Assembly: GCF_009812035.1 (NCBI RefSeq)
Contig: NZ_VZIZ01000013.1
Coordinates: 132,852 to 196,851, forward strand
DNA length: 64,000 nucleotides
Origin: Psychrobacter nivimaris
GTDB taxonomy: Bacteria; Pseudomonadota; Gammaproteobacteria; Pseudomonadales; Moraxellaceae
Direction: 5' to 3'
In this document: positions 788 through 28,825 of the stretch, piece by piece
Position numbering within the stretch: position 1 is the stretch's first letter
Layout: every line of letters starts with the position of its first letter
Translations under genes and position numbers: made by a program
Notes under the pieces: model-generated
The model's input: only the letters and a program-made list of their open reading frames with translations
Told to the model about the DNA's origin: nothing
The model's database searches: none

Positions 788-3535
788 TTAAGTGAGACTT
801 AGGTTTTTAGGCATTTCAAACACCCAGCAACGAATGCTACGGCCTGTGATTTGAGACGCTACGGTCTTGTTTGCTGCCACAAACTTGAACTGTCTAGACT
901 GGCGTAGCGCGTGGTGCATGTCGGATTGTGGCGGTAGGTCATAGCGGTACTCATTCGCAAGCTGATAGATCTCTGGCATACTGATCGCCAATAGTTCTGG
1001 GTTTTTACTGTGGTTGATATGCAAGCGGCGAATATGATGACCAGCACCTTCGATTGCGTTGGGCGCTGCATTCAATCGTTCGAGTACATCAAAGAATTGG
1101 ATATTGAGCGGATGCTCGGTATCAAGCGTCTGATCGCGTTCGGTTGCCATATTGAATACTTCCTGCTTTACCGCACCGTCCAAGCGTTGCAAGTCTGGCA
1201 ATACCAGTTTCATCGCATCAAACATGGCGAGTATCTGCGCGTGGCAATGAGCAACACGGAAAGCTTTGACACCGCTGTCTTTTAACCAATTCTCATGCGC
1301 TATTTTGGTATCAAAAAATACCTGCAGTATCTTGTCTTCCATCTTGAGAATATCGACTAAAAAATGACTGACATCTTCGGTCTGTAAAGCCTCGATGCGT
1401 CTGGCTGCTGCTTCAGAATCTCGGGTCTGGTTGTCCAATGCAAAGAATAGGTGGCAGATACGGCTTAGTACTGCTTTGGACGCCACCACGGGCAAATTCT
1501 GACTGATGACGATAGTGCCGCGAAACGGTGGCTCATAGACTTCGTTGCCGGCTGATTTGACGCCGCGTGTACCAATCGTGCCACCGTCATATAGGTTTTT
1601 TAGTTCGTCCCAATTGAACTGACTGTTGCGACCAGTGCCGGCACCGTCACGGTCAGACTCAATAAAGACACTAGGCATATTTGAGGTTTGTGATAATGAG
1701 CGCAGACGACCGGCTTTGGTAGTTTTGTTGGGATCGATACCCTCGTAGCCGTCACGACCTATCAAACGCCAAAAAAAGCTAAGTAGGGTTGATTTACCAG
1801 TACCAGGCTCACCAACGATTTCTAGAAAAGGAAAGGACTTTTGACGATCGCGTACTTGCTGGGCAAACAAGCTGCCCATGAAGCCGACCAGACTAATGAC
1901 GCCTTGCACACCCCAGCCAGATATGATGTCCGCTAACCAGTTAGCTGGATCTTTGGGGCGGTCACCGATTCTGATATTTGGACTGGCAGCGAGTGTCTTT
2001 AGGCTTTTATTATTTGGCAGGTCAAAATAATCATCAGCATTGAGCGGGTAGCTCTGACCATGACGGATGGCTACATCGTTAAAAATGTAAGTCTGATGGT
2101 CTTTGCTATAACCAATAAAATCGATGGTCTCTACTGTCTTGATGCCATTAATCATGCGTCCTAGCATGACATCTAGCTGCTTTGAATTGCCTTGATAAAT
2201 GACGCCTGGCGCGACTGATAATAGGCGCTTTTTGAATTCACCCGCTGCAGAGAGTTGGCTACCGGTAAAAGTGTTCTTGGTGTCGCCTTGTGGTGTGCGA
2301 ATACGAAAAAAATACCACGACTCATCGGTGACAAGGTTTTGCTGATAGTAGAGCGCTTGCGGTTGACAGTTCATGATCTGAGTGACGGTCATGCAAGACT
2401 GCATTAGGTCGTCATGCCATAGCTGTACGGCCTCTTTTAATTCTTCTTCAGTATTGAATAGATCCTCTGTCGGTTCGCTGTCCGCGTCCATTTGCTTGGC
2501 TTTATCAAAGCTCTCGCTGTCTACTTTTACCCAGTAGGTGCAACTGTTGAAAAACATATAAAAGCTAGTGGTACCATATTGGTTGTACGTCAGTAGCGCC
2601 TTGTCTTTTGCTGTCTCAGCAATAAGCAGCTCACCATAAAAGCGGTAGCGTTCAAGGTCTGACTTAGTGAGTTTGCCCGCTTTGTGTAGGTCGTTCCAGT
2701 CATCACCGTTAGCGTATTCGCTCGACTGAGCGGCGGTAGCGTCCCAACCGTTTTGACGTGCAGTGGCCACCAGCTTATCAGTGGCTTTGCGTCCGGCATT
2801 ATCAGGATCTAATGCGATTACTAGCTTGGGTAGAGGCTTGCCAAGCTCAATCATTCGCGCTTTGATCTGCGCTAATGTATGCGCTGGGAAGTTACCAGCG
2901 GTGATATTGCTGATAGCATGTAGACCGTTCTCAGTCAGTGCCATGGCGTCAAAGATACCTTCGACTATCCATAGCTCTTTCACATATGACCAGATGCCAT
3001 GCTGTAGGTGCAGCTTTGGCGGTAACCAAGCATGACCTTTAAATTTAAAGCCTGTTTGCACGCGTGCTTTTTTTATATTTGCGGCGGGTTCTATCAGCCG
3101 TTCCCAATACCCTAGAGTTTGCCCTTCGCTGGTGATGTTGAAACGGACACTAGGACAAGTAAAATCAGAATAGAAGTCTTTGAATACTTCTTGGGTATAG
3201 CTGCCTTGCCATTTGACAATATCAAAGCCACGTCCCGACTGAAGATAAGCGTCAGCCGTGGCATTTGGGTTGCTGGGTGTTGGTGGGTTTTTCTTCGTCC
3301 AATTGGCGAATATGTCTGGGTAAATATCGCGAGTAGATGCTTGGTAATTGCATTTATTAGCGCGGCCACACTGGATCGTCCACGGCGCATCTGCACCGGT
3401 GAATAACTCTTTTTTATTACATGATGGGCAGCGGCCATAACGCAAAAACTGACGGTCGCTGGAGAATTTGAGACCATAATCTTGTACGAGGCGAGTGATT
3501 AGCTCGCTACGGGTATCATCTTGCATGGGTTGCAT
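788..3535 (-). CDS. Phage primase-helicase (zinc finger, Toprim, P-loop ATPase)
   Basis: About 915 residues. Order of domains: an N-terminal zinc-binding segment (CPSC near residue 36, then a second Cys pair about 25 residues later), a Toprim domain (VEGIFDAMAL, and ALDPDNAGR about 60 residues on), a long middle region, and a C-terminal P-loop ATPase (GEPGTGKST). This is a primase fused to a helicase-type ATPase, for priming and unwinding in phage replication. The frame is open back to 3658, but that start would run through the ogr-like gene. I chose the ATG at 3535, which leaves a 29-bp gap. P2 itself uses the rolling-circle initiator gpA, so the replication module has been exchanged, unless an initiator lies left of the window. 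Confidence 0.85.
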   Translation of the reverse strand: MQPMQDDTRSELITRLVQDYGLKFSSDRQFLRYGRCPSCNKKELFTGADAPWTIQCGRANKCNYQASTRDIYPDIFANWTKKNPPTPSNPNATADAYLQSGRGFDIVKWQGSYTQEVFKDFYSDFTCPSVRFNITSEGQTLGYWERLIEPAANIKKARVQTGFKFKGHAWLPPKLHLQHGIWSYVKELWIVEGIFDAMALTENGLHAISNITAGNFPAHTLAQIKARMIELGKPLPKLVIALDPDNAGRKATDKLVATARQNGWDATAAQSSEYANGDDWNDLHKAGKLTKSDLERYRFYGELLIAETAKDKALLTYNQYGTTSFYMFFNSCTYWVKVDSESFDKAKQMDADSEPTEDLFNTEEELKEAVQLWHDDLMQSCMTVTQIMNCQPQALYYQQNLVTDESWYFFRIRTPQGDTKNTFTGSQLSAAGEFKKRLLSVAPGVIYQGNSKQLDVMLGRMINGIKTVETIDFIGYSKDHQTYIFNDVAIRHGQSYPLNADDYFDLPNNKSLKTLAASPNIRIGDRPKDPANWLADIISGWGVQGVISLVGFMGSLFAQQVRDRQKSFPFLEIVGEPGTGKSTLLSFFWRLIGRDGYEGIDPNKTTKAGRLRSLSQTSNMPSVFIESDRDGAGTGRNSQFNWDELKNLYDGGTIGTRGVKSAGNEVYEPPFRGTIVISQNLPVVASKAVLSRICHLFFALDNQTRDSEAAARRIEALQTEDVSHFLVDILKMEDKILQVFFDTKIAHENWLKDSGVKAFRVAHCHAQILAMFDAMKLVLPDLQRLDGAVKQEVFNMATERDQTLDTEHPLNIQFFDVLERLNAAPNAIEGAGHHIRRLHINHSKNPELLAISMPEIYQLANEYRYDLPPQSDMHHALRQSRQFKFVAANKTVASQITGRSIRCWVFEMPKNLSLT

Positions 3536-3564
3536 AATATTGCTCGTCTGGTTTGGTAGTTTGG

Positions 3565-3756
3565 TTAGGCATTTGCGCTGATTGGTTTGTCTTTCTGCAC
3601 GTCTGGCTTGACTATCGAGCGTACATACTCTTGCTGAGTGACGAATATATGTCCGCATTCATCGTTTTTGCAGCTGTGTTCTATATCGCGTAAGTAGTCA
3701 GTAATGACGCGGGTACGCAGGATTAAACAGTTGGAATGACAAGCTGGACAGCGCAT
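3565..3756 (-). CDS. ogr: Ogr/Delta-like late transcription activator
   Basis: A 63-residue protein opening MRCPACHS, with a second Cys pair (CKNDEC) followed by GHIF. This is the zinc-finger pattern of P2 Ogr and P4 Delta. These small proteins contact the RNA polymerase alpha subunit and activate P2 late promoters at sites about 55 bp upstream of the start. A late activator fits the P2-type late genes in the rest of the prophage; candidate target sites are the 39-bp repeats near 22,797 and 28,744. It lies between small regulatory genes and the primase. Confidence 0.85.
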   Translation of the reverse strand: MRCPACHSNCLILRTRVITDYLRDIEHSCKNDECGHIFVTQQEYVRSIVKPDVQKDKPISANA

Positions 3757-3768
3757 ATATGACCTCTT

Positions 3769-3930
3769 TTAGTGTTTGACGATGAGTTGTAACTCTTTAT
3801 CTGTTTCAGCGAGTGCTTGTCTCAGTGCCCAAGCGACAAACTCATCGACGCTTACTCCATGCTCGGCAGCCTTACGCTCAAGTAAGCGCTGCTCTGCAGG
3901 GGTTGGGTGGATATAGACATCGTTAGGCAT
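3769..3930 (-). CDS. Small hypothetical protein, 53 aa
   Basis: A 53-codon ORF beginning MPNDVYIHPTPAEQ and ending LIVKH. It lies between the ogr-like gene and a 92-aa ORF and fills a gap that would otherwise be empty. Its start overlaps the stop of the upstream gene by 8 bp and its stop is 12 bp before the ogr-like start, typical of a compact operon. The sequence is helical and charged; it resembles a short ribbon-helix-helix or helix-turn-helix regulator, but I cannot assign a family. Confidence 0.6.
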   Translation of the reverse strand: MPNDVYIHPTPAEQRLLERKAAEHGVSVDEFVAWALRQALAETDKELQLIVKH

Positions 3931-4201
3931 GGCTGGTGACTCCTGAGGTACTGACCGGTGCTTGTGTCATCGCCCAAAAGTGACCTAATGGCATCTCGAC
4001 TGTGTTTTGTGATGGCAGTATCATAGCGATAGGTTGTTCATGAAATACCAGGTCATGGATCTTGCTCATGGCTAGCTGTCTGACCAGTGTGGCCATCTCG
4101 ATACCCGAACGCTCGGAGTGGGCTAGTAATATCTGGTAGTCGTAGTGATCGACACTGATTTTGATCGGGTTATCGCGTAGTTTTTTGGTGTTTGGGTTCA
4201 T
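3923..4201 (-). CDS. Hypothetical prophage protein, 92 aa
   Basis: A 92-residue protein with a stretch (ISVDHYDYQILLAHSERSG) reminiscent of the strand-helix start of ribbon-helix-helix proteins, followed by a hydrophobic helix and a Pro/Thr-rich tail. No firm family. It is the second gene of a leftward operon after the 68-aa ORF (27-bp gap) and overlaps the 53-aa ORF by 8 bp. A regulatory role is only a guess. Confidence 0.55.
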   Translation of the reverse strand: MNPNTKKLRDNPIKISVDHYDYQILLAHSERSGIEMATLVRQLAMSKIHDLVFHEQPIAMILPSQNTVEMPLGHFWAMTQAPVSTSGVTSHA

Positions 4202-4227
4202 GGTTTGGTTTCCTTCTTGGTTTGGTT

Positions 4228-4434
4228 TTAGTGTTGCTTGGACTGCTCTAGCTGTAGACCAGCCTGATAGCGACGGTATGCAACATAGCTCATGGATCGA
4301 ACTTCATTACCAGCTGTGCTTACTAGCTCTTCATGTTCATTTGGCGTTAGCCGTAGCTGTATGGGTTTGCGTTTACCATCTTTTAGATGTGGCAGCTCTC
4401 CCTTGGGTGTTGCCTGTAATGTTGTTTCAGTCAT
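4228..4434 (-). CDS. Small putative DNA-binding protein, 68 aa
   Basis: A 68-residue basic protein. The central part (KPIQLRLTPNEHEELVS) looks like the strand and first helix of a ribbon-helix-helix fold. It is transcribed divergently from the phage repressor at 4553, so the 118 bp between them should hold the early/repressor switch. It may be the Cox/Cro-like partner of the repressor or simply the first early gene; the sequence alone does not decide. Confidence 0.55.
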   Translation of the reverse strand: MTETTLQATPKGELPHLKDGKRKPIQLRLTPNEHEELVSTAGNEVRSMSYVAYRRYQAGLQLEQSKQH

Positions 4435-4458
4435 TTGGTGTTATCCTATAGCTAATTG

Positions 4459-4483
4459 AAAGCGTGTTAACGTGGTACGGTTT
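4459..4483. promoter_or_regulatory. 25-bp palindromic element, copy 1 (repressor promoter)
   Basis: AAAGCGT-N11-ACGGTTT, the first of three copies of one element (the others at 7327 and 8755). The right arm has one change from the perfect ACGCTTT. A TG-extended -10-like TACGGT sits at 4476-4481. The -35 here is poor (TAATTG, 17 bp upstream) compared with TTGATG in the other two copies. It lies in the divergent region between the 68-aa gene and the repressor. Confidence 0.6.
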
Positions 4484-4493
4484 AATAATACAG

Positions 4494-4540
4494 TCAAATG
4501 AACGTATTTGCAATCATATTATACATTCAAACGAAAATAT
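4494..4540. promoter_or_regulatory. Repressor operator candidates
   Basis: Two similar direct motifs, TCAAATGAACGTATTT at 4494-4509 and TTCAAACGAAAATAT at 4527-4541, lie 33 bp apart just before the repressor start. A third relative, TCCAAACGAACATATTC, appears at 7383 after copy 2 of the palindromic element. Repeated half-sites upstream of a phage repressor gene are typical of autoregulation. The protein that binds is not shown by the sequence. Confidence 0.4.
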
Positions 4541-4552
4541 AAGGGGTGTGCT

Positions 4553-4993
4553 GTGGAGTCAATTGAAGTGGGGAAGCGCTTAGAAGCAGAGCGTCAGCGT
4601 TTGGGCCTTATGGCAGTTGAGGTCTATGAAGAGCCAACTATCAGAATTGCTCAAACAACGTATAAGAACTATGAGACAGGCAAGCGTGATATGCCCTCAT
4701 CACTACTAATTAAGCTATGGAATATTGGGTTTGATGTGATGTATGTCTTGACTGGTCAGCGTTTAGAGGATATTGCGCTTGACGTAAGATCTCATAAGGA
4801 TCTGCCGTCATATCATCAGAGATTGATCAATCTACCCGATATACTGGATCTAGAAAGCCCTTCAGATAGGCTGTTGGGTGCGATGTATCACGCAGAGGAA
4901 GCGTTGGTACAAGCCGGGGCAAATGCCAATGAAGACTATGACTATAAGATACTAGCAACATTAGGACTGGGTTTAATTGATACAGTCAAATGA
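4553..4993 (+). CDS. Phage repressor-like HTH protein
   Basis: About 146 residues. The N-terminal part (VGKRLEAERQRLGL, then TTYKNYETGKRDMPSSLLIKL) is an XRE-type helix-turn-helix with the usual YxxYExGKR segment, followed by a helical C-terminal part for oligomerisation. There is no peptidase domain, so it is not a LexA/CI-type self-cleaving repressor. I chose the GTG at 4553, preceded by AAGGGG 9 nt upstream; the upstream TTG at 4508 lies inside the operator-like repeats. It is divergent from the leftward early operon, as expected of the prophage immunity repressor. Confidence 0.75.
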   Translation: MESIEVGKRLEAERQRLGLMAVEVYEEPTIRIAQTTYKNYETGKRDMPSSLLIKLWNIGFDVMYVLTGQRLEDIALDVRSHKDLPSYHQRLINLPDILDLESPSDRLLGAMYHAEEALVQAGANANEDYDYKILATLGLGLIDTVK

Positions 4994-10181: not shown

Positions 10182-11204
10182 CTAAACTGTTTCGGTTAAA
10201 CCCGCCTCGCACTTAATGCCAGTACTATAACCACTGCCTGATAGGTCATGTGTCACTTCTACGACTGTCCATTGATGCTCATCGATATATGGTCTAAAGC
10301 CTCGCACCGTCGCAGGGCTGTCAGCAATAATATCAGGGCGTGCCATCGCTAACGTCAAATCAAAGTTCGCCACTTGGCGGGCTTTTTTGTTGGCACTCGC
10401 TTTTGCCTTGGATACCGCCTCATTTTTTGACTTGGCCGGTTTAGTCAGTACATGAGATTTGTCATTGGGTAGGGCATCTAGTGGTTTGGATTTACCATCC
10501 TTAACGCTGATATGCTTAGTCTTACCAGTCTTATCATCATGATAGCTCGATGTCGTCTCGTCATAGTCGCTGGTACGATCGGCGCGACTATAACGATGAC
10601 TGTCCCCAGACTGACGAGTGATAGTGACTGCTCCCAATGCCGCCCCTGAAGGTGATCTTGCATTGGCAATCGGTTTAATAATCAGCCGTCCCGCCTTAAT
10701 CGTACACATCAAATCATGGTCATCACAAAGCCTGGTCAATAGATTGATATCACTCTCACGGTGCTGATCGATATGATCGATCATTATTGCTGACACTGCA
10801 TTATCAATGGCCAATATCAAGTCATGACGTTTGGCCACACTCAAAGCTATTTCACCAAGCTTGTGCTGATGATAGCTGTCACTGCGTTTTACTTTCAGAG
10901 ATGATTTAAAGTCAGCGGACTTGGCGCGGATCTGCAGCTGGTCAGGTGTGCCACTGTGCTCGGCTTGATCAATGGTAAATGTGCCTTTGTCTATCATATC
11001 GCCAGTATCAGGCATCGCGAGCCATAGCCTTATCTTATTACCATTGGTAGGTAAGGGCAGCGCCGCGTCATGATCAGATAGTGTGAGTGATAATTCATCT
11101 GCTTCAGTACCCCGCTTGTCTGTCATTGAGAGACTAATCAGACGCTTCTCAACCTGCGCTGTGCGATCAATGCCTTCGATTGTCAGCTTGAATAATTTTC
11201 TCAT
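10182..11204 (-). CDS. D: Late control protein gpD (tail hub)
   Basis: About 340 residues, matching P2 gpD in length and place (U-D at the end of the tail operon). In P2-like phages it forms the tail hub related to T4 gp27. The opening (FKLTIEGIDRTAQVEKRLISLSMT) and the central Lys-rich, His-containing segment are typical. The start overlaps the stop of gpU by 4 bp. Its 3' end recurs as a diverged remnant at 8472-8683, beside another cassette. Confidence 0.85.
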   Translation of the reverse strand: MRKLFKLTIEGIDRTAQVEKRLISLSMTDKRGTEADELSLTLSDHDAALPLPTNGNKIRLWLAMPDTGDMIDKGTFTIDQAEHSGTPDQLQIRAKSADFKSSLKVKRSDSYHQHKLGEIALSVAKRHDLILAIDNAVSAIMIDHIDQHRESDINLLTRLCDDHDLMCTIKAGRLIIKPIANARSPSGAALGAVTITRQSGDSHRYSRADRTSDYDETTSSYHDDKTGKTKHISVKDGKSKPLDALPNDKSHVLTKPAKSKNEAVSKAKASANKKARQVANFDLTLAMARPDIIADSPATVRGFRPYIDEHQWTVVEVTHDLSGSGYSTGIKCEAGLTETV

Positions 11205-11626
11205 ACGTCAGCTCGATCCTGGTCTAAGATGGCCACTTGCTCACGCTCGCTATCATCTGCCAGCTTGAGTGCTAAGCTAAAACTAATTTTGCGAGCAGTA
11301 CCATCTGATAATAAGTGTGATTGAGTCTCACTGATGTCAGTGATATAGCACATGCCATAGTAGTAACCATTGCCATTCATGAGCGCGTAGGTTTTACCAG
11401 TCGCCGCCATATCTCGTAATTCATCTAATGAGACGATGCCCTTCGTGATCTCTGGATAGAGCGTACCTGATAGCGATATGTCGTCGTTATCTTGGCCGAT
11501 ATACTGCATATGCGGTCTGGTACCGACAGCGTTGCCGGTACCAAAACGATAGCCTGATTTGCGCGATATCTCATCAAATGCCGCGCTGGTGGTCTCAAAT
11601 ACAAACAATCCTAAACTGGCTAACAT
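11201..11626 (-). CDS. U: Tail terminator-type protein gpU
   Basis: A 141-residue protein in the P2 order T-U-D. The start (MLASLGLFVFETTSAAF) and the GTRPHMQYIGQDNDDISLSGTLYPE region match the gpU family, which in P2 completes the tail. It overlaps gpD by 4 bp and lies 20 bp after gpT. Confidence 0.85.
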   Translation of the reverse strand: MLASLGLFVFETTSAAFDEISRKSGYRFGTGNAVGTRPHMQYIGQDNDDISLSGTLYPEITKGIVSLDELRDMAATGKTYALMNGNGYYYGMCYITDISETQSHLLSDGTARKISFSLALKLADDSEREQVAILDQDRADV

Positions 11627-11646
11627 AAAATAATCCTTATATGCCC

Positions 11647-14139
11647 TTAATCAATATCAGATAAGCGGCTACGCTCACGTGCCATTTGATTGCGTTGCTC
11701 ACCAGCCAATACGCGCTGGACTTCACGCGCTACGGCTTGCGGATCGGTTGCACCATGAATGTTTATAGTGATATTGCCACTGCTCATACCGCCCATCATC
11801 GCCATACTAGACTGACCGCGAGGTGGCAAGATAGATTTTCGGCTGTCGATACTGATCGGTGCATAATCATTGATTTGGCCAGCGATAGATTTGGTTGCAC
11901 TGACGGGAATACCAGCATTGGATAATATGCCACGTCCTAAGCCTTGCATCATATAACCGCCATAGCTGTCAAAGACTCGGCTAGGGCTGTGAATGTCCAT
12001 CCCTTTTGAACCCGTAAATGCACCCTTGATACGTCCAACGATATTGCTGATTGAATTGATAACCGCTTGCGCCCTGCCTAAGATGCCGTTTTTTAGTCCT
12101 TCGAGCATATTGGCGCCGTACTGCCTAAAAGTAGCTCCTAATCCAGCCAAGTAACCCCAAACGGCAGCAAATGCGGTCATGAATGACGCGACTGGATTGA
12201 AATTAGATATGAAGGATCTAAGTGCCTGAATACCCATATTAAATATGGCTTTGATACGTTCCCAAAGCGCCGCAAACATCGGCCCTAGTGTGTCCCAGTT
12301 CTTATAAATGGTAAAAGCCAGTACTGCTAATGCTAGGCACAGTGCCAAAATAGGGTTGGCCATTAGCGTGAGCGTCAATGCTCTGACAGCACCACCAATC
12401 ATACCGAATGCTTTGGCCAACAACCCCAACGGTGTCAGTGTCGTTGGTAGCCCCATCGTGATCAGTGATGCACGTAGTAGTGCCATAGGTCCTAAGATGG
12501 TTAGCATGATTGCGCCCAGACCACCAATGACGACTGCACCAATGGCTAACGTGGCGAACATTGTCCCTAGTACTGACATTAGCTGTGGATGAGCATTGGC
12601 GAACGCGGTCAAACGTTGGGTCATCGCCGTAATAGACTGAATGAACTCACGTAGCGCACCGCCGTTGGCATCAAAAATAGAGGTTCTAAGGGCATCAATG
12701 GCCGACGTCATCGCTTTGTAGTCACCTGTTGTATTGTCGCCCATCGTTTTTGACAATCCAGCGGCTTCTCCTTGAGCGTTTTGCAAGTCAGTGATTAATG
12801 TTTGTAACTTGCCATTGCCAGCTTCAGCAACCAAGACAGCTAAAGCGCCACCGGCTTCTTCTCCCGCAATGCCTTTGAACAATTCTGATTGTTCTGCATT
12901 ACCCAAATTTTTACTTTTATCGTGAATCTCTTTTAATATATCTGGCATTTGGCGCAAGTTGCCATTTGCATCGGAGGTCTTGATACCTAGTCTATCAAGT
13001 GCCTCAATCGTCGCTTTTGGGCCTGCTGCCATTCTAGACATAATAGCCCGCATCGCTGTACCGGCCATACTCGCCTGGATACCTGCATCGCCCAACTTAC
13101 CAGCCATTGCTGCTGATTGCTCTAATGACACACCTAGTAGTGCGGCGCCTGGCGCGGCATACTTCATGGTTTCGCCAAGCATTTCAATATTTGTGTTTGA
13201 ACGGGTAAAAGTACCTGCTAATACATCACCAAGCTTACTCATCTTAGAAGGGTCGATCTTCATGCCTGAGAGAATATTTGACGCGATATCAGCTGTTCGG
13301 TCTAACTCCATGCCACCAGCTAAAGCAAGATCAAGCATCCCCGGCATAGCAGCTTTTACAGATTCAGGGGTAAAACCAGCCATCGCTAAGAACGTCTGTC
13401 CAGCCGCGGCATCGGCTGATGTAAAGCTGGTAGACGCTCCTAGCTCTTTGGCTTGTGCAACCAGTGCTTGATACTGTGGACTGTTTTTATCTAGACGGGT
13501 GACCGCCTGAACTTTACTCAAGTTCTGTTCCAACTCAATACCGGGCTGAATGAACCGTGCACCGGCATAGGTTGCTGCTGCACCGCCTACGGCCAGTCCC
13601 ACAGCCTTATTACGCATATCACCCATTTGCTGTGATTGACGTTCAAGCTGTCGAACCTCGCTCATTCGCCGGCGCTGCTCTGCCAGCTGTTGATTGGTGC
13701 GCTCGATATTACGCGCAAGATCACGCTCATGATCAGATAGATTATTGGTGCTAATACCTGCATCTGATAAACGACCGCGTAACTGCTGTAAATGCTGCCG
13801 TTGACTATCAAGGCGAGTATTCAAACGATGAGACTCACGCCCTGCAGCCTCGAATTGGCGTACCAAGGCTGCGCTAGGATTGGCCGTATCGCGCATTTGC
13901 TGCTCTAACTGCTGTAGTCGGGCACGGCTACGCACAGCAGCCTCTGAGGTATCAGCTAGCGCTTGTTTTTGTTGTCTGAAGCTATTAATCAAGCCTTGCT
14001 GTGACTGAAGTTTACGCGCTGCTTGTGCTGTCTCACCAAACTGACGACCTAAGCGATCGGCTTGGCTACTGAGTGAGCGCATGGGTGCAGTCATGCGGTC
14101 GATAAGTTCTATCTGTGCTCGAAAGCTTAGGTCTGCCAT
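11647..14139 (-). CDS. T: Tail tape measure protein gpT
   Basis: An 830-residue protein. The N-terminal 170 residues are helical coiled coil rich in Gln/Arg/Leu (SQADRLGRQFGETAQAARKL). The middle is the phage tail tape measure domain (YQALVAQAKELGASTSFTSADAAAGQTF with conserved GF). Three to four hydrophobic segments follow around residues 520-610, and the tail has SPSRVFDSYG. It sets tail length and passes into the host envelope at injection. It follows E/E', as in P2. Confidence 0.9.
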   Translation of the reverse strand: MADLSFRAQIELIDRMTAPMRSLSSQADRLGRQFGETAQAARKLQSQQGLINSFRQQKQALADTSEAAVRSRARLQQLEQQMRDTANPSAALVRQFEAAGRESHRLNTRLDSQRQHLQQLRGRLSDAGISTNNLSDHERDLARNIERTNQQLAEQRRRMSEVRQLERQSQQMGDMRNKAVGLAVGGAAATYAGARFIQPGIELEQNLSKVQAVTRLDKNSPQYQALVAQAKELGASTSFTSADAAAGQTFLAMAGFTPESVKAAMPGMLDLALAGGMELDRTADIASNILSGMKIDPSKMSKLGDVLAGTFTRSNTNIEMLGETMKYAAPGAALLGVSLEQSAAMAGKLGDAGIQASMAGTAMRAIMSRMAAGPKATIEALDRLGIKTSDANGNLRQMPDILKEIHDKSKNLGNAEQSELFKGIAGEEAGGALAVLVAEAGNGKLQTLITDLQNAQGEAAGLSKTMGDNTTGDYKAMTSAIDALRTSIFDANGGALREFIQSITAMTQRLTAFANAHPQLMSVLGTMFATLAIGAVVIGGLGAIMLTILGPMALLRASLITMGLPTTLTPLGLLAKAFGMIGGAVRALTLTLMANPILALCLALAVLAFTIYKNWDTLGPMFAALWERIKAIFNMGIQALRSFISNFNPVASFMTAFAAVWGYLAGLGATFRQYGANMLEGLKNGILGRAQAVINSISNIVGRIKGAFTGSKGMDIHSPSRVFDSYGGYMMQGLGRGILSNAGIPVSATKSIAGQINDYAPISIDSRKSILPPRGQSSMAMMGGMSSGNITINIHGATDPQAVAREVQRVLAGEQRNQMARERSRLSDID

Positions 14140-14218
14140 GTATTTGCGCCCACTTTATTGTTGATATCAATGATGCTGATGTTGTCTTGGTTCCCTCATT
14201 GGTGAAGGAACCAAGCTA

Positions 14219-14335
14219 TCATTCATCAGGGTTATTACGGATACGCGCTCGTTCACGCCAATCAGCAAGCTCTTCGATCGTCATGTGATACATCGCGTCT
14301 GGTGTCCAGCCGAACACCAAGGCGATGTCTGCCAT
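14219..14335 (-). CDS. E': gpE' (GpE-family), second frame of E+E'
   Basis: A 38-codon frame (MADIALVFGWTPDAMYHMT and a Trp-Arg-Glu helix), the P2 GpE'-type sequence. In P2 it is made only as a C-terminal extension of gpE by a -1 frameshift. Here the -1 frame relative to gpE is open all the way from the T7 run at 14404-14410 through this ATG to the TGA at 14219. The E+E' fusion can therefore form as in P2 and would be a tape-measure chaperone. Confidence 0.8.
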   Translation of the reverse strand: MADIALVFGWTPDAMYHMTIEELADWRERARIRNNPDE

Positions 14336-14343
14336 GCAGTCTT

Positions 14344-14679
14344 CTACGCGGTTGGGATAGCTGCGGTTTCGGTTTCGGCTTGCAACTGATGTTTCGCTTT
14401 GGTAAAAAAACCTGCAATAGTTAACCCCACATCCATCAAATCAGCGGCATCCATGTTTTTGACTTCATGCTCATGGATGACTGGATTACTGATACGAGGG
14501 AGTACTACGGCTAGGGCATCGACTTTGGCCATTGAAATATCAATCAGTGATTGGCCACGCAAGTCACCACCCATCGGACGACGCAGGGTAAATTCTTTAA
14601 TCTCTTTTTGCTTGTCGCCAGTACCGCGAATGATAGGGTAGTCAAGTTCGATCGTTGGCATTTCTACGTTGTTACTCAT
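14344..14679 (-). CDS. E: Tail protein gpE
   Basis: A 111-residue protein of the P2 gpE family (YPIIRGTGDKQKEIKEFTLRR, then a helical region with DLMDVGLTIAGFF). It is the tail assembly chaperone that, with its frameshifted form, guides the tape measure. It lies 83 bp after FII. The frameshift run occurs at codons AGFF, about 20 codons before the stop, leaving a short gpE-specific tail. Confidence 0.85.
   Translation of the reverse strand: MSNNVEMPTIELDYPIIRGTGDKQKEIKEFTLRRPMGGDLRGQSLIDISMAKVDALAVVLPRISNPVIHEHEVKNMDAADLMDVGLTIAGFFTKAKHQLQAETETAAIPTA
14404..14410 (-). other. Probable -1 frameshift site of E/E'
   Basis: A run of seven T on the coding strand (GGT TTT TTT ACC). Slipping back by one enters the frame that continues without a stop into gpE' at 14335. 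It is equivalent in position and nature to the T6G slip site of P2 E+E'. Confidence 0.75.
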
Positions 14680-14761
14680 GGTGTATCCTTAATCAGTAAT
14701 TTTTAGTCGATGTTTTAATCAAATAGGTGTCTGGTTTGGCCACTTAATTTGTATGATCAAT

Positions 14762-15289
14762 TTAGACGGTGGCAAACATTCCCATGGCTTCACGGATCTC
14801 TTTTAGTCGGTCTTCGCCATTGACGATACACTTCATGGCCATGGCATCAATTTCAATGATATCTTCACCGTCTACGACCAGCTTGTAATACGCCAGTGCA
14901 TACTTGAACGACTCTTCTGTGTCGTCGCCTAGCTTGGCGCTACCAGGGTCGATCTCTTCTAAGCGACCACGGCAGTAGATATCGACAGCTGACACACTGC
15001 AGTCATCATCACGCTGATAAGCACCTGAATAAGACAAGACGACCTTATCAATACCAGCACGCGCAAAGTCGCGGTACAAATCTGCTTCGTGGCCACCGCA
15101 TTTGATGGTCATCTCCATCGCTTCTTGGCCCAAATCTACCTTGACCGGCATATCCATACCACCAGCGCGATACTCTTCGAGCACGCGAGTCAGTTTGGGC
15201 AGCTCAATCTCTGGGATCTGACCTTGATAGCGCTTTTGGTTACCAAGGCCTTTGTAAGCCATGAAGTTCTTTAATTTACGAGGTAACAT
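14762..15289 (-). CDS. FII: Tail tube protein gpFII
   Basis: A 175-residue protein starting MLPRKLKNFMAYKGLG, the typical gpFII opening, with the LPKLTR segment and a GGMDMPVKVDLG stretch. It forms the inner tube of the contractile tail. The start is well supported by AAGGAA before the ATG. It follows the second half of the sheath gene by 38 bp, so the P2 pair FI-FII is kept in order. Confidence 0.9.
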   Translation of the reverse strand: MLPRKLKNFMAYKGLGNQKRYQGQIPEIELPKLTRVLEEYRAGGMDMPVKVDLGQEAMEMTIKCGGHEADLYRDFARAGIDKVVLSYSGAYQRDDDCSVSAVDIYCRGRLEEIDPGSAKLGDDTEESFKYALAYYKLVVDGEDIIEIDAMAMKCIVNGEDRLKEIREAMGMFATV

Positions 15290-15327: not shown

Positions 15328-15927
15328 TTAGGCCGCTGCTGCTACCAAGTCGGCAAAGTTGACCAGGTATGTATCGGTGATCGTCTGGTTCAGGTTAAGG
15401 TTTTCGAGGTTAGGCACTGGGGTAAAGTCATAATCAAGATATAGCTTGCCTTGCATCAAAAGCGTTTCGCTGTTTAGCTCAGTGTTGTACCAACACTTTG
15501 CACCGATTAAATAACCGAAGTTAACCATCTCCTGCAGCTTGGCATTGATGGCACGAATGATGTCACGCACAGTCGTTGGTGATAGCGGCTGATCGATAAA
15601 CTGAAAACAGCCATTGATAATGGTATCGAGCAAAAACTGTGAGGTACGCACGACTGGCTCAAACATATACTCAGGCTGATCAGAGCAAGTATGACTGCCC
15701 CAAAATCTAAAGCCGTTATGCTGAATCAGGCTGGTCACGTCATTGGCATTTAAATATCCGACTTCAGTATCAGGATCTTCTAGATCCCAGGTACGTGGAT
15801 ATTTGATGCCACTAACAGTATCAATGGCAACGTTGGACAGCGACTTGACGAAACTATACTGGTGCGTCTTGTCTAAGTGAGCACGTAGAGCTGCGGCCAC
15901 GGCGATGATAGGGGTTACTTGGGTCAT
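15328..15927 (-). CDS. FI: Tail sheath gpFI, C-terminal half (separate reading frame)
   Basis: A 199-residue frame matching the C-terminal half of P2-type tail sheath: KSLSNVAIDTVSG, then TSLIQHNGFRFWGSHTCSD, and the end LYLDYDFTPVPNLENLNLNQ. It has its own ATG with AAGGAAAG 6 nt before, after a 50-bp gap from the lectin frame. Together with the N-terminal half at 17558-18109 it makes about 382 residues, close to a normal P2 sheath (about 396 as I recall). The break falls just after the RELM segment. So the sheath must assemble from two polypeptides, or the gene is inactive. Confidence 0.85.
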   Translation of the reverse strand: MTQVTPIIAVAAALRAHLDKTHQYSFVKSLSNVAIDTVSGIKYPRTWDLEDPDTEVGYLNANDVTSLIQHNGFRFWGSHTCSDQPEYMFEPVVRTSQFLLDTIINGCFQFIDQPLSPTTVRDIIRAINAKLQEMVNFGYLIGAKCWYNTELNSETLLMQGKLYLDYDFTPVPNLENLNLNQTITDTYLVNFADLVAAAA

Positions 15928-15977
15928 GGTTCTTTCCTTAATACATAAAAATTAATTTAAAATTAGCTATCGCTCAG

Positions 15978-17561
15978 TCAAACGCCATACAACGCCGCCC
16001 GTACACCAACATCGTCGTAATTAGTCGTGCGCGAACCATTGAAGCTGACATCCCAGAAGCCCGAGAGCGCAAAGTTACTCCAATTGCCACCCGACATCGG
16101 GCACAGATCGTCAACGCGATTGTTATAAAAACGGTCATGACCAAATAGATCTGTGCCAGACGTACTATTAACGCCAGTAGCAATAGGAATGCCCGCGCAT
16201 GAGGCTTGCCAGTCTTTACCTGTCATCGCACTTGAGAATACTTGCTGTGTACCGTTGCCCATCTTCATACCGCGAGACGTACCTGTGAGCGCACCAATAC
16301 TAGCACCCAGTGACTCATAGTTTGCTGCGATACCCGCTGCACCCCATGCGTCATTAGCAAGCGTCGCGCCACTGGTTAGCGCTGACGCCTTAGCAGACGT
16401 TTTGAGCGCGTAGAATGTACCCGACAACTGGGTCACGCCTAAGCAAATCTCGTACATATTGCCGTTAAGGTCTGCTACACCGTTGCTTTGTCCGTTATGC
16501 GTAGTTTTAGCAAACGGCAACGCCGAACCCGTCTTACCTGCTTTTAGATAGCCTGTGGCTGTGTACTTAACCGTTGCATCGTTAACGTCACCCAACGCGT
16601 CGTTGTTACAACCCTTCGGATAATTAGCAACGCCCGTTGGGTCATACCATGCACAGTTATCAATACTTGTTGCTGCTTGCGCGTGTGCCATACTGAGTAA
16701 TGATAAAGCCCGCTGAACAAATAGCGTTGTAACAAAAAACTCTGAACCCCGCGTCTTAACCGCATCAATCGCCCCCGCGTAAGTGTTCGCTGGTGAGCCT
16801 GTTAACGCACTAAATGGGGCATTTGAGCTAGACGATGATAAAGGGATGCCGTTTTTGATTGAGCTAGCAATACCGCCATTATTACTTGCTTGATATTTAT
16901 CAACAAAAAATCCGTCTTTGATTTGTCCGCCGTCATAAAACGCTCGATGTAGCGCATACCCTGCCGCATTAGCAGCCTCTACGCTATCAAAGTCATACTT
17001 AGATTTAACATCGCACGCATTTAGACCGTATTTAGTAGCGCGTGGGCTGTCTGCACCCCCCCAACGATAATAAAACATAGGTATCCAGCACATAATAGAA
17101 CCATCACTGTGTTGGTAATTACCATAATTTTCATGACCTGCCGTGGTTGTACCTTCCATCTCGCTCATGCCAAGCGGTAGTATGTCCGTAATGCCTACCC
17201 CAAATAACGCCGTGCCCTGTATACCGATATTGTTCACTGTTGCATCAACTGCTGGCGTAGCAGGTTGCACGGCTTCGCTTGCTACGCTGGTCGCATTTTC
17301 TGCATAACCATCATTATCTGTAAATACTGCCTCAACGGTGATAGCCTTGCCGACTTGTTCGGTTTTTAGAGTGTACGTTTTAGCGGTTGCGCCGGGTATA
17401 GCGACATTATCAGCAAGCCACTGATATGCAAAGTTAGCGGGTACGCCGTTTGGGTCTATAGCGGTAGCAGTTAGCGTTTCCCCGACCTTAGCTGTTCCTT
17501 CAATGGTAATACTAGCGTTTTCATTACCAGGGGTTTCAGGAACGGTAGGCGGGGTCTCTAC
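15978..17561 (-). CDS. Ig-like plus C-type-lectin/FGE-like domain, -1 extension of the sheath N-half
   Basis: A 527-codon open frame without its own ATG. It starts directly behind the GGGAAAG slip site at the end of the sheath N-half, and a TGA four codons upstream closes the frame on that side. Residues 1-20 are a Pro/Thr/Glu linker; about 20-95 an Ig-like domain (GTAKVGETLTATAIDPNG, then YQWLADNVAIPGATAKTYTL); the last 430 a lectin-like fold with NGVADLNGNMYEI and a C-terminal GGNWSNFALSGFWDVSF then VGVRAAL. Such ends are the variable regions of retroelement-diversified receptor-binding proteins. The first alternative start is a GTG at 17270, after the Ig domain. Read through by frameshifting, the product would be about 710 residues. 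Confidence 0.8.
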   Translation of the reverse strand, partial: VETPPTVPETPGNENASITIEGTAKVGETLTATAIDPNGVPANFAYQWLADNVAIPGATAKTYTLKTEQVGKAITVEAVFTDNDGYAENATSVASEAVQPATPAVDATVNNIGIQGTALFGVGITDILPLGMSEMEGTTTAGHENYGNYQHSDGSIMCWIPMFYYRWGGADSPRATKYGLNACDVKSKYDFDSVEAANAAGYALHRAFYDGGQIKDGFFVDKYQASNNGGIASSIKNGIPLSSSSSNAPFSALTGSPANTYAGAIDAVKTRGSEFFVTTLFVQRALSLLSMAHAQAATSIDNCAWYDPTGVANYPKGCNNDALGDVNDATVKYTATGYLKAGKTGSALPFAKTTHNGQSNGVADLNGNMYEICLGVTQLSGTFYALKTSAKASALTSGATLANDAWGAAGIAANYESLGASIGALTGTSRGMKMGNGTQQVFSSAMTGKDWQASCAGIPIATGVNSTSGTDLFGHDRFYNNRVDDLCPMSGGNWSNFALSGFWDVSFNGSRTTNYDDVGVRAALYGV

Positions 17562-18109
17562 TTTCCCGGCTCACCAAAAGCCCCTTCAACTAGCATCAAC
17601 TCACGAGCAGCGAACGTATCGCGATACGCGGCAATATCTTCTTTGACCGTAATCAACGTGCCGTCTTCAGCTCGCGGTGATGCATACACAAAAGCGCGGC
17701 GTTTTTTGGCGATCTCAATCAGCTTACGTGTCATATCTGGCGTATCAATTTCAGGCGCGATCAAGATCTTTGGCGTCACACCAAGGCGAGATTGGCAGCT
17801 CAGTAGCGTATCTACTGTCGTCAGATCGACCGGCTCAGATACTCGCAGAACAACGACAGTCGTATTCTGGATAGATTTAATCGTGCGTAAGCATTGATGC
17901 AATAACTGGTCATCACTACCTGCGTTAGTGACATCAGTCGTGGTAATGCCGGTCAGTAGTACCGGCGTATCAAGAGGATAAGCGGTGTCATCAGCGTCCG
18001 CACTAGTACTGATAAGTGCTATCGTGCTCGTGCTGACGGACTTGATGATCGGTGTGATATTGCTACTCTCAGTAGCGGTAATACCGTGGTGGTACGTGGT
18101 TAATGCCAT
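17558..18109 (-). CDS. FI: Tail sheath gpFI, N-terminal half
   Basis: A 183-residue frame starting MALTTYHHGITATE, the usual start of P2-type tail sheath, with the segment TLLSCQSRLGVTPKILIAPE and ending near AARELMLVEGAFGEPGK. P2 FI continues for about 200 more residues; here a TAG stops it directly after the slippery codons GGA AAG. Decoding in frame 0 gives this half alone; slipping by -1 adds the Ig/lectin domains. The rest of the sheath is encoded separately at 15328-15927. It follows H by 31 bp; no tail-fibre assembly gene (G) lies between. Confidence 0.9.
   Translation of the reverse strand: MALTTYHHGITATESSNITPIIKSVSTSTIALISTSADADDTAYPLDTPVLLTGITTTDVTNAGSDDQLLHQCLRTIKSIQNTTVVVLRVSEPVDLTTVDTLLSCQSRLGVTPKILIAPEIDTPDMTRKLIEIAKKRRAFVYASPRAEDGTLITVKEDIAAYRDTFAARELMLVEGAFGEPGK
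17561..17567 (-). other. Canonical -1 slippery heptamer GGGAAAG
   Basis: G GGA AAG in the sheath frame fits the X XXY YYZ rule exactly. The zero-frame stop TAG follows at once. AAGGGG (17581-17586) is 13 nt upstream, like the internal Shine-Dalgarno that stimulates -1 frameshifting in dnaX. The frame entered is open for 527 codons. No downstream pseudoknot was evaluated. Confidence 0.75.
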
Positions 18110-21759: not shown

Positions 21760-22145
21760 AGCGCACCGCCTAATGACAGATAAGTACGTTCAATCTTTTT
21801 ACTAATCACATAACGATATTCAATCATCAAACTGGCAACGCCTTGTGAGGCACTATCGTCAGTCATCAGCTCAATGCGAGTTGGTGTGACACGAGTTTCC
21901 CAGCGCATGAGCGCATGAATGACGGAGGCGCGAAGCTGCATAATAAAATAGGCATTAATAGGTGCGTCAATTAAGAACGGTAGCAATGAGCCGTAATCGC
22001 GGCGCATGACACGACTACCGATAGGCGTCATCAATATATCGCGGACGCTTTGTAAGATATGATTGGTCTGGTCAATACGCTGACCAGTACTGCGTGACAT
22101 GCCTTTGACATTAATCACAGTGACGTTGTTATCTTGATTAAGCAT
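21756..22145 (-). CDS. W: Baseplate protein gpW (gp25-like lysozyme fold)
   Basis: A 129-residue protein with the T4 gp25/P2 gpW core: QSVRDILMTPIGSRVMRRDYGS, then a helix and the segment RIELMTDD. It is a baseplate wedge component. It overlaps V by 8 bp and J by 4 bp. Confidence 0.9.
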   Translation of the reverse strand: MLNQDNNVTVINVKGMSRSTGQRIDQTNHILQSVRDILMTPIGSRVMRRDYGSLLPFLIDAPINAYFIMQLRASVIHALMRWETRVTPTRIELMTDDSASQGVASLMIEYRYVISKKIERTYLSLGGAL

Positions 22146-22764
22146 TAACGCCCCCAGTAGTGTCTGAGCCAGACTTAACGTTTTTATGACCGTGGTCTAA
22201 ATACGGTTGGTCATTAATAATTAATTTTCCGTTTTGATTGATGGTTTGACCATTTAATTTGTAATTGCTACAAGAAACCTCATAGTTATCACTAGCCACA
22301 CGATAATTAGTGCAATGAACACCAATATCGATAGCAGACAATAAAATGTAACTTGAATTAATATTTGTAGTAGATTCATCGGGTAGGCTCACTGATAAGT
22401 TATGTGTAGCATGGTTGTAGGTAAATGTCGCGCCATCGTCGCAATGGATCTCAAACGTATCAGCATTGGCAGACGGCATTGGCTGATCATCATAATCAAA
22501 CGATGTCGTTACCAGTCCAGTCGACAGCTCACCAGTCTCGCTAATAACGAGAACTTGCTCACCAACACACGGTGGATTCCAAATTTTGACCTTACCGATG
22601 CGAGCTGCTGAAAACTTTAGCCAGTCGGTCTCTAACCCATCTATCTGCACCCGGCAACGAGCATTAGCATGATCGACGTCTGTGACAATGCCTCGATTGA
22701 TAAAACTTTGGAGCCGGCGCTCGTTTTCGATAGGGGATGTATTCATGACGTTATCGTCACTCAT
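22138..22764 (-). CDS. V: Baseplate spike gpV
   Basis: About 209 residues. The first 90 form the OB-fold of phage spike proteins (GIVTDVDHANARCRVQIDGL, then PPCVGEQVLVISETGEL). The rest is a beta-helical tip ending in a YLDHGHKN segment. It is the membrane-piercing central spike. The frame is open to 22830, but that start would lie in the inverted repeat. I chose ATG 22764; 22746 (MNTSPIENERR), which looks more like P2 gpV, is also possible. Confidence 0.85.
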   Translation of the reverse strand: MSDDNVMNTSPIENERRLQSFINRGIVTDVDHANARCRVQIDGLETDWLKFSAARIGKVKIWNPPCVGEQVLVISETGELSTGLVTTSFDYDDQPMPSANADTFEIHCDDGATFTYNHATHNLSVSLPDESTTNINSSYILLSAIDIGVHCTNYRVASDNYEVSCSNYKLNGQTINQNGKLIINDQPYLDHGHKNVKSGSDTTGGVNA

Positions 22765-22777
22765 TGCGATTCTTGAT

Positions 22778-22816
22778 ACAAAACAAAAAAGCGTGGATTG
22801 AGTAAATACACGCAAA
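22778..22816. promoter_or_regulatory. 39-bp repeat with inverted arms, copy before V
   Basis: ACAAAACAAAAAAGCGTGG then ATTGAGTAAATACACGC and AAA; 37 of 39 bases match the copy at 28725-28763. Arms GCGTG (22791-22795) and CACGC (22809-22813) can pair. On the - strand the arms are followed by T6, so it could also be a weak terminator after gene S. The core GTG-N12-ACA is one change from the TGT-N12-ACA consensus of P2 late promoters. P2 has late promoters before V and between O and P, exactly where the two copies lie. Confidence 0.55.
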
Positions 22817-22830
22817 AAAGAGCAGGGCAT

Positions 22831-28724: not shown

Positions 28725-28763
28725 ACAAAACAAAAAAGCGTGGATTGAGCGAATACACGCAAA
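28725..28763. promoter_or_regulatory. 39-bp repeat with inverted arms, copy between O and P
   Basis: The second copy of the repeat at 22778. It lies in the 182-bp divergent region between O and P, where P2 has its two back-to-back late promoters. The core GTG-N12-ACA is centred at 28750. A centre at -55 predicts starts near 28,805 (21 bp before P) and near 28,695 (51 bp before O), which fits both genes. Control by the Ogr-like protein is inferred. Confidence 0.6.
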
Positions 28764-28825
28764 ACAAGCATGATATAGAGAGGCTGATAAACCAAAGTAG
28801 CGTCATACCCTTATGAGCTGCGTTA

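Follow-up and report, generated by a model that had tools for sequence, protein, structure and literature searches.

Probable -1 frameshifting from a split tail sheath gene into an exchangeable binding module in P2-like prophages of Psychrobacter and its relatives

The tail sheath gene of a P2-like prophage region in Psychrobacter nivimaris (contig NZ_VZIZ01000013.1, positions 132,852 to 196,851; this stretch of 64,000 nucleotides is called the window) is divided into an N-terminal half (N-half) and a C-terminal half (C-half) in separate frames, and between them an immunoglobulin-like (Ig-like) domain and a C-type lectin lie in the -1 frame relative to the N-half. Comparison with related loci, numbered with L (genomes are numbered with G), suggests that a programmed -1 frameshift at the end of the N-half makes an N-half-Ig-lectin protein as a minor form, that the N-half and C-half assemble into one sheath subunit, and that the lectin is displayed on the tail, a reading to which we assign a probability of about 0.8. 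With less assurance, the sheath of P2-like phages in the family of Psychrobacter and Acinetobacter is probably a two-chain display platform with a plug-in receptor-binding cassette, supplied at frameshift dose or full dose and, in one lineage, with a lectin hypermutated by a diversity-generating retroelement (DGR). The gene anatomy, conservation, selection, cassette borders and predicted lectin fold described here are all read from sequence.

In the proposed mechanism, most ribosomes would stop at the TAG after the N-half, and some would shift into the -1 frame at G GGA AAG to produce an N-half-Ig-lectin protein of about 710 amino acids. The C-half would be translated from its own ribosome site, and the N-half, with or without the Ig-lectin tail, would fold with it into one sheath subunit, so that a minority of lectin arms would stand outside the contractile sheath, where they may bind host or other surfaces. 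The piece from the slip site to the C-half ribosome site would be a cassette swapped between phages. Frameshifting is supported by comparison; its occurrence and rate, the two-chain assembly, surface display and binding are what we infer.

Anatomy of the split sheath locus

The N-half (17558-18109, minus strand, 183 amino acids) begins with the ATG at 18109, ends in GEPGK followed by TAG, and matches phrog_23, tail sheath (9.4e-22). Direct reading of its 3' end gives the codons GAG CCG GGA AAG TAG and bears out the initial annotation, which had placed G GGA AAG in the sheath frame directly 5' of the stop: the heptamer (17561-17567, minus strand) is in phase, and TAG (17558-17560) follows directly. 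The -1 frame opens at 17570, directly after a TGA and 10 nucleotides (nt) before the N-half stop, and runs for 530 codons to a stop at 15978, or for 527 codons when counted from the GTA at 17561, the length claimed earlier for an open frame that starts with an Ig-like domain lacking its own start codon; that description, too, agrees with the sequence as read. The zone in which a -1 shift is possible spans 13 nt including the stop, and the heptamer occupies most of it. The Ig-like domain (17274-17561, minus strand) has no start codon before or inside it and matches the Hoc-like phrog_4069 (2.3e-6); the first ATG, GTG or TTG in the -1 frame is the GTG at 17270, past the Ig region and 99 codons downstream of the slip. 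The lectin domain (15978-17270, minus strand) continues in the same frame and was assigned to the DGR variable-protein type by AlphaFold2 and Foldseek. Next come an AAGGA ribosome site (15935-15939, minus strand), which has a similar context in Psychrobacter-type relatives, and the C-half (15328-15927, minus strand, 199 amino acids), which has its own ATG and matches PF17482 (1.3e-12) and phrog_23 (2e-62).

The N-half and C-half align to the first and second part, respectively, of one-piece sheaths. The C-half matches residues 199-385 of the R-pyocin sheath 3j9q (E 2.8e-24); for the N-half, phrog_23 was matched, and the searches gave no Pfam match and no PDB match. At 183 and 199 amino acids in separate frames, the window sheath is not the single polypeptide of about 390 amino acids typical of P2-type sheaths, and no second sheath gene was found in the host genome, where the C-half search gave one place only. 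In G280, an unsplit sheath of 513 amino acids has an additional 130 or so residues just where the others are split, and this site of the sheath therefore tolerates an insertion. Domain II (residues 26-225) of the diffocin sheath is inserted in domain I, at the surface (PMC6088184); judged from position, the sheath cut would fall late in the equivalent of this domain II.

Split sheaths and their reading register in relatives

A search with the C-half covered 348 genomes of the bacterial family of Psychrobacter and Acinetobacter, 64 of which had any match. Split C-halves, with an open frame of 199-229 codons, were found at 21 places in 19 of the 348 genomes, and most other matches in this family lay in frames of 391-411 codons. 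Wider searches of evenly drawn genomes, 390 at the level of the order and 369 at that of the class, gave a split only in G000 and G036, a tally that leaves out G594 C57 (open frame 320); the edge cases were an open frame of 214 at a contig edge in G396 and a 59-codon fragment in G004, and in G640 (open frame 357) the sheath was continuous from N to C in the copy inspected. Many viral contigs, including three with a length of 35-36 kb, also carry split C-halves, and the same split is present in MF417929.1 (Bracchivirus U2F1), where the genes are annotated 'putative major tail sheath', 'hypothetical protein' and 'hypothetical protein'.

For classification, C-half matches had to reach 60 bits, loci with the same junction were counted once, and an N-half was lacking within 5 kb in 9 loci. 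Leaving out 12 partial copies and bringing back 9 fuller ones gave 54 split loci from genomes and viral contigs, still including near-identical ones such as L101/L102, L108/L192 and L208/L210/L211. A module is fused in frame to the N-half in 22 of the 54, and 27 have an out-of-frame continuation past the N-half stop; the remainder comprises three loci without a module (L155, L197, L098) and two with a separately started next gene (L097, L191). Thirty loci had been called as ending in a stop, and L098, which has no module, L097 and L191 were set aside from the 27. The out-of-frame continuation is in the -1 frame in all 27 loci and extends for at least 114 codons in 25 of them, and the longest +1 run past the stop in this set is 32 codons. 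In L097, a stop-terminated locus of the window type, the heptamer is absent and the next gene is a separate +1 open reading frame (ORF) with its own ribosome site. In L191 the next ORF starts at an ATG of its own and continues into the C-half in an open frame of 350 codons, and here the following gene seems from the sequence to be fused to the front of the C-half instead of to the N-half. In two splits without a module, L155 (G269) and L098 (G208), the N-half stop overlaps the C-half ATG.

Conservation of the slip site

The heptamer GGGAAAG is present in phase in all 14 Psychrobacter-type -1 loci, including the window, versus 2 of 7 in-frame or other loci of this type (Fisher p 0.001, without correction for kinship of the loci). 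The initial annotation had named conservation in homologues as a check on the slip site and had considered a chance origin of the junction signals unlikely; both points are upheld by this count. Across 573 codon-aligned columns of 13 of the 14 N-halves (L089, cut at its 5' end, was excluded), the longest invariant run is GGAAAG, at 6 bases (next 5), and a G precedes it in 13 of 13 N-halves, the codon there varying among CCG, GCG, CTG and ATG. Among the 13 Acinetobacter-type -1 loci, GGGGGAG occurs in 10 and GGGAAAG in 3; GGGGGAG is found in none of the 16 Acinetobacter-type in-frame loci, and GGGAAAG in 4. The in-frame relative L207 reads GGA AGG at the slip position. G_GGA_AAG is rated highly shift-prone in E. 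coli (PMC5009743).

Early -1 stops were also considered as a dnaX-like truncation at in-frame loci with the slip site or GGGAAAT. All 7 such sites stop within 8 codons; such a use is not claimed because the null chance of a stop of this kind is 0.59 per site.

Selection, stimulatory signals and alternative explanations

Selection was estimated by the Nei-Gojobori method as the ratio of non-synonymous to synonymous substitution rates (dN/dS), with the ratio of proportions (pN/pS) used where dS was saturated. The N-halves of the window and L064 differ by 49 synonymous and 2 non-synonymous changes (dN/dS 0.010), and the other five window pairs give 0.07-0.09; for the C-half, the window versus six relatives gives 0.02-0.05. 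The maximum across all 21 pairs is 0.18 for the N-half (L088/L094) and 0.07 for the C-half. The Ig region read in the -1 frame, which lies upstream of any start in the window, has a dN/dS or pN/pS of 0.15-0.31 in six pairs, and the lectin has a dN/dS of 0.16-0.21 in three. The Acinetobacter-type -1 modules are less clear, with 0.18-0.45 for the whole module and a maximum of 0.65 over its first 30 codons (three pairs). By these low ratios, the two sheath halves and the window-type Ig region are under purifying selection and maintained as proteins.

Stem-loops were assessed in the 45 nt starting 4 nt past the slip as folding z-scores versus shuffles, using as controls 18 of the 22 in-frame loci (L203, L206, L210 and L211 were unused) at an approximate homologous position, with rounded z values in the tests. 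Mean z was -3.05 in the 13 Acinetobacter-type loci, -1.73 in the 14 Psychrobacter-type loci and 0.00 in the 18 controls, and -1 loci differed from controls, towards more stable folds, with a Mann-Whitney p of 1.8e-5, or 1.9e-4 on a hand-thinned set of 19 versus 12, values that are optimistic because the loci are related. Between L199 and L198, one stem pair is kept via a double change (CUCCC/GGGAG for CCCCC/GGGGG). Together, the register of 27 out of 27, the invariance of the slip site, the selection on the Ig region in the -1 frame and the stem-loops as a group support the programmed frameshift that the initial annotation had proposed at the end of the N-half. That account had not noticed the family of arrangements, the module exchange or the DGR type of the lectin.

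Several observations weigh against frameshifting at these sites. Because some in-frame relatives keep GGGAAAG (2 of 7 Psychrobacter-type loci that are in-frame or other, 4 of 16 Acinetobacter-type in-frame loci), the heptamer alone is no proof of use, and GGGGGAG is non-canonical with respect to X XXY YYZ and was chosen after the loci had been inspected. The -1 extension of L187 and L221 runs just 22 and 29 codons past the stop. Although z is -2.8 or lower in 10 of the 13 Acinetobacter-type loci, L111, L201 and L212 have no stem-loop; just four of the 14 Psychrobacter-type loci reach -2.9 or lower (L025, L087, L190, L221), L062 and L188 have slightly positive values, and the window itself shows no significant stem-loop after the slip (z -0.7 and -0.3 in two calculations). 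The Shine-Dalgarno-like AAGGGG (17581-17586, minus strand), a possible stimulator, is indeed separated from the heptamer by 13 nt, as had been noted at the outset, but among the loci inspected the same spacing recurs only in L064; it is shifted in L085 and absent in L025, L062, L087 and L088. An upstream Shine-Dalgarno sequence as a general stimulator was dropped because it is not conserved among those loci. The slip site is also the border of an exchanged piece, which could by itself favour conservation of the heptamer; the constant register, together with the stem-loops, points to more than a border effect. Finally, in 12 of the 27 loci the -1 frame offers a start codon ahead of the slip or less than 10 codons beyond it, and re-initiation is therefore possible there.

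These start codons, and the GTG at 17270 in the window, could mean that the lectin is a free protein made from that GTG or by re-initiation after the TAG, with the Ig region not translated together with the sheath, and lectin relatives in other phages do have starts of their own. This is unlikely, as the Ig region upstream of the GTG is under selection as a protein, nine loci (the window, L064, L182, L183, L101, L106, L107, L201 and L212) reach their first start codon no earlier than 18 codons past the slip, 22 loci fuse their modules to the N-half in frame, and a free lectin would presumably be missing its virion anchor. Slightly less likely still is decay, in which insertion of a DGR cassette or a tail-fibre fragment broke the sheath gene of a now dead prophage and the heptamer is incidental. 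The window has no template repeat (TR), Avd or reverse transcriptase (RT) beside the lectin, the only RVT_1 match of the genome lies elsewhere, the C-half of L098 in G208 holds an internal stop, and that of G004 is cut after about 30 amino acids, all of which would suit a broken locus. However, decay of the sheath halves is contradicted by the strong constraint on each of them although they are separate (dN/dS 0.01-0.09 for the N-half and 0.02-0.05 for the C-half, window versus six split relatives), as it is by the spread of split C-halves through 21 places in 19 of the 348 family genomes and many viral contigs. A shift by RNA polymerase slippage, to which runs of GGGGG or TTTTTTT at some Acinetobacter-type junctions might point, is very unlikely, given that stem-loops follow a few bases past the slip in many loci and that the Psychrobacter-type site is just GGG AAA, short for transcriptional slippage.

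The Ig domain, the lectin and a retroelement within the sheath gene

Besides its Hoc-like match, the Ig region gave a weak match to the phage decoration protein 5lxk (E 0.017) and no Pfam match. An AlphaFold2 model of Ig plus lectin from 13 sequences reached a predicted local distance difference test score (pLDDT) of 40.4 and was left unused; the lectin alone, modelled with 62 sequences, reached 91.3. The best Foldseek match of the lectin model is the Thermus DGR variable protein TaqVP (5vf4, E 3.4e-16), with weaker matches to PvdO, formylglycine-generating enzymes and Mtd of Bordetella phage (E 7.6e-4 and above), and the predicted structure thus has the C-type-lectin fold of the DGR variable-protein type.

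A homologue with the Ig domain, an ATG of its own and no slip site had been named at the outset as the case that would speak against the frameshift, and among the loci analysed no Ig homologue with a sheath N-half lacked the slip site. Two loci come near it. L006 (G004 contig 22, 1-3034) has a truncated Ig-plus-lectin frame at the contig start with a TTG at the cut, no N-half, no heptamer in the 43 bases before the TTG, and a C-half cut after about 30 amino acids and followed by another gene. In L066 (1-1937), the frame that gives a weak Ig match (38%) is a separate one, open to the contig edge and stopping before the lectin; the contig holds no sheath N-half, and the lectin relative has its own ATG. 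As judged from their sequences, neither is a sheath locus in which a start codon replaces the slip site. Ig domains 41-49% alike also occur in other large proteins (L007, L008, L013, L021).

The window is not itself a DGR, because TR and RT are absent: no second TR-like stretch was found in it, TR, Avd and RT are lacking beside the lectin, and there is no Avd or RT match within the sheath locus of the window, L062 or L064. The only RVT_1 match in the host genome is on another contig, beside genes that by eye are UvrA-like and SWIM-like. The lectin does end in a variable-repeat-like stretch (15995-16108, minus strand) that aligns to the TR of L025, and residues 401-420, at this end, form the most variable lectin block among the window, L062 and L064 (13 of 20 columns; the linker block, residues 1-20, has 12 variable columns). 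The sequence of this end fits past diversification or diversification in trans.

In L025 (G092), the order of genes within the sheath gene is N-half, lectin in -1 after GGGAAAG, bAvd, TR, reverse transcriptase and C-half, with matches to RVT_1 (1.7e-15) and bAvd (4.2e-17). The TR differs from the variable repeat at 15 of 117 positions, and the TR base is A at 13 of these and T at 2. By these sequence features, L025 is a complete DGR inside a sheath gene. The L025 region (10587-14756 of G092 contig 12) has a second copy 34,795 bases further, identical over 14,795 compared bases, and therefore represents tandem prophage stretches or an assembly repeat.

An exchangeable cassette between the halves

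The borders of the cassette were mapped by blastn on six phage pairs with different modules. In four of them (L087/L088, window/L085, L182/L183, L188/L221) similarity runs through the N-half and breaks off inside the slip site or shortly after the stop; in L088/L094 and L087/L085 it is lost earlier, 22 and 25 nt ahead of the N-half stop. It resumes 7-20 nt ahead of the C-half match. Five pairs have flanks of 92-97% identity; those of L087/L085 reach 80% and 91%. The same-module pairs window/L064 and L025/L062 are similar through the cassette. Module matches include laminin-G (L104), LRR_5 (L192, L212) and DUF285 (L212), and these alignments indicate that binding modules (Ig, DGR-type lectin, laminin-G, leucine-rich repeat) are exchanged between the slip region and the C-half ribosome site, or fused in frame. 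The cassette of L221 carries, after its short -1 tail, a GDSL esterase or tail-fibre-like protein of 619 amino acids (3120-4976).

Other genes lie between module and C-half in two loci. L183 has a weak glycosyltransferase-2 match, below the cut-off (0.0011), at 4423-4986, and L095 (G102) has genes that by eye are glycosyltransferase-like and GalE-like (epimerase); a Pfam search of the first L095 gene behind the module gave no match. Judging from these likenesses, such genes may modify the displayed module.

Neighbouring features of the window

The gene after the C-half encodes the tail tube protein FII (14762-15289, minus strand; PF04985, 1.4e-53). At codon 90 of gene E (14344-14679) stands T TTT TTT, from which the -1 frame extends the gene by some 60 codons, an arrangement that resembles the known P2 E/E+E' frameshift. 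A direct repeat of 40 nt (95%) occurs at 22778-22817 and 28725-28764; the copies are close to the points where a gene (22138-22830) and divergent capsid-side and terminase genes (28842/28826) begin. The first 25 bases of this repeat have no other occurrence in the window, with 0 expected by chance, and it is perhaps an activator site of late promoters.

Comparison with known systems

A -1 slip, as proposed for the window, is known from lambda gpG/gpGT and P2 E/E+E'. The slip site of lambda gpG/gpGT is G GGA AAG, and the products of both of these systems are tail-assembly proteins, with no display. Closer in outcome are the T3 capsid, Lactobacillus phage A2 and SPP1 gp17.1*, in which an Ig-type C-terminal domain is added by frameshift to a fraction of a virion protein, while other phages fuse Ig domains in frame (PMC5009743, PMC9022992). 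Unlike in those cases, the carrier here is half of a split sheath, the Ig domain leads to a DGR-type lectin or other modules, and the C-half is a gene of its own.

Multi-domain phage sheaths of types 2 and 3 bear additional domains, many of them Ig-like, that are placed away from the tube side (PMC9230969). These are single genes, and the portion of that source searched does not mention a split, a frameshift or a lectin. The type VI secretion sheath consists of two proteins, TssB/TssC (VipA/VipB) (PMC9230969), as the split sheath described here would. It is a different system; in the present case the gene structure fits such a two-chain sheath. Among DGRs (Mtd of Bordetella phage, Thermus TaqVP, tentaclins), L025 shares variable protein, bAvd, TR and RT, and the window lectin has a predicted fold like that of TaqVP. 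Unlike in other DGRs, the target in L025 is in the -1 register to a sheath half, and the whole element lies inside the sheath gene. No description of a split sheath with a frameshifted module was found in the PubMed Central literature searched, a body that leaves subscription journals mostly outside.

Sheath subunits are tightly interwoven within a contractile machine, and building a phage sheath from two separately translated chains would change what such machines are presumed to require. If true, the split sheath would provide a natural split point for protein display, and tail arms that are dosed by frameshifting, exchangeable and even hypermutated would constitute a new site of host-range evolution.

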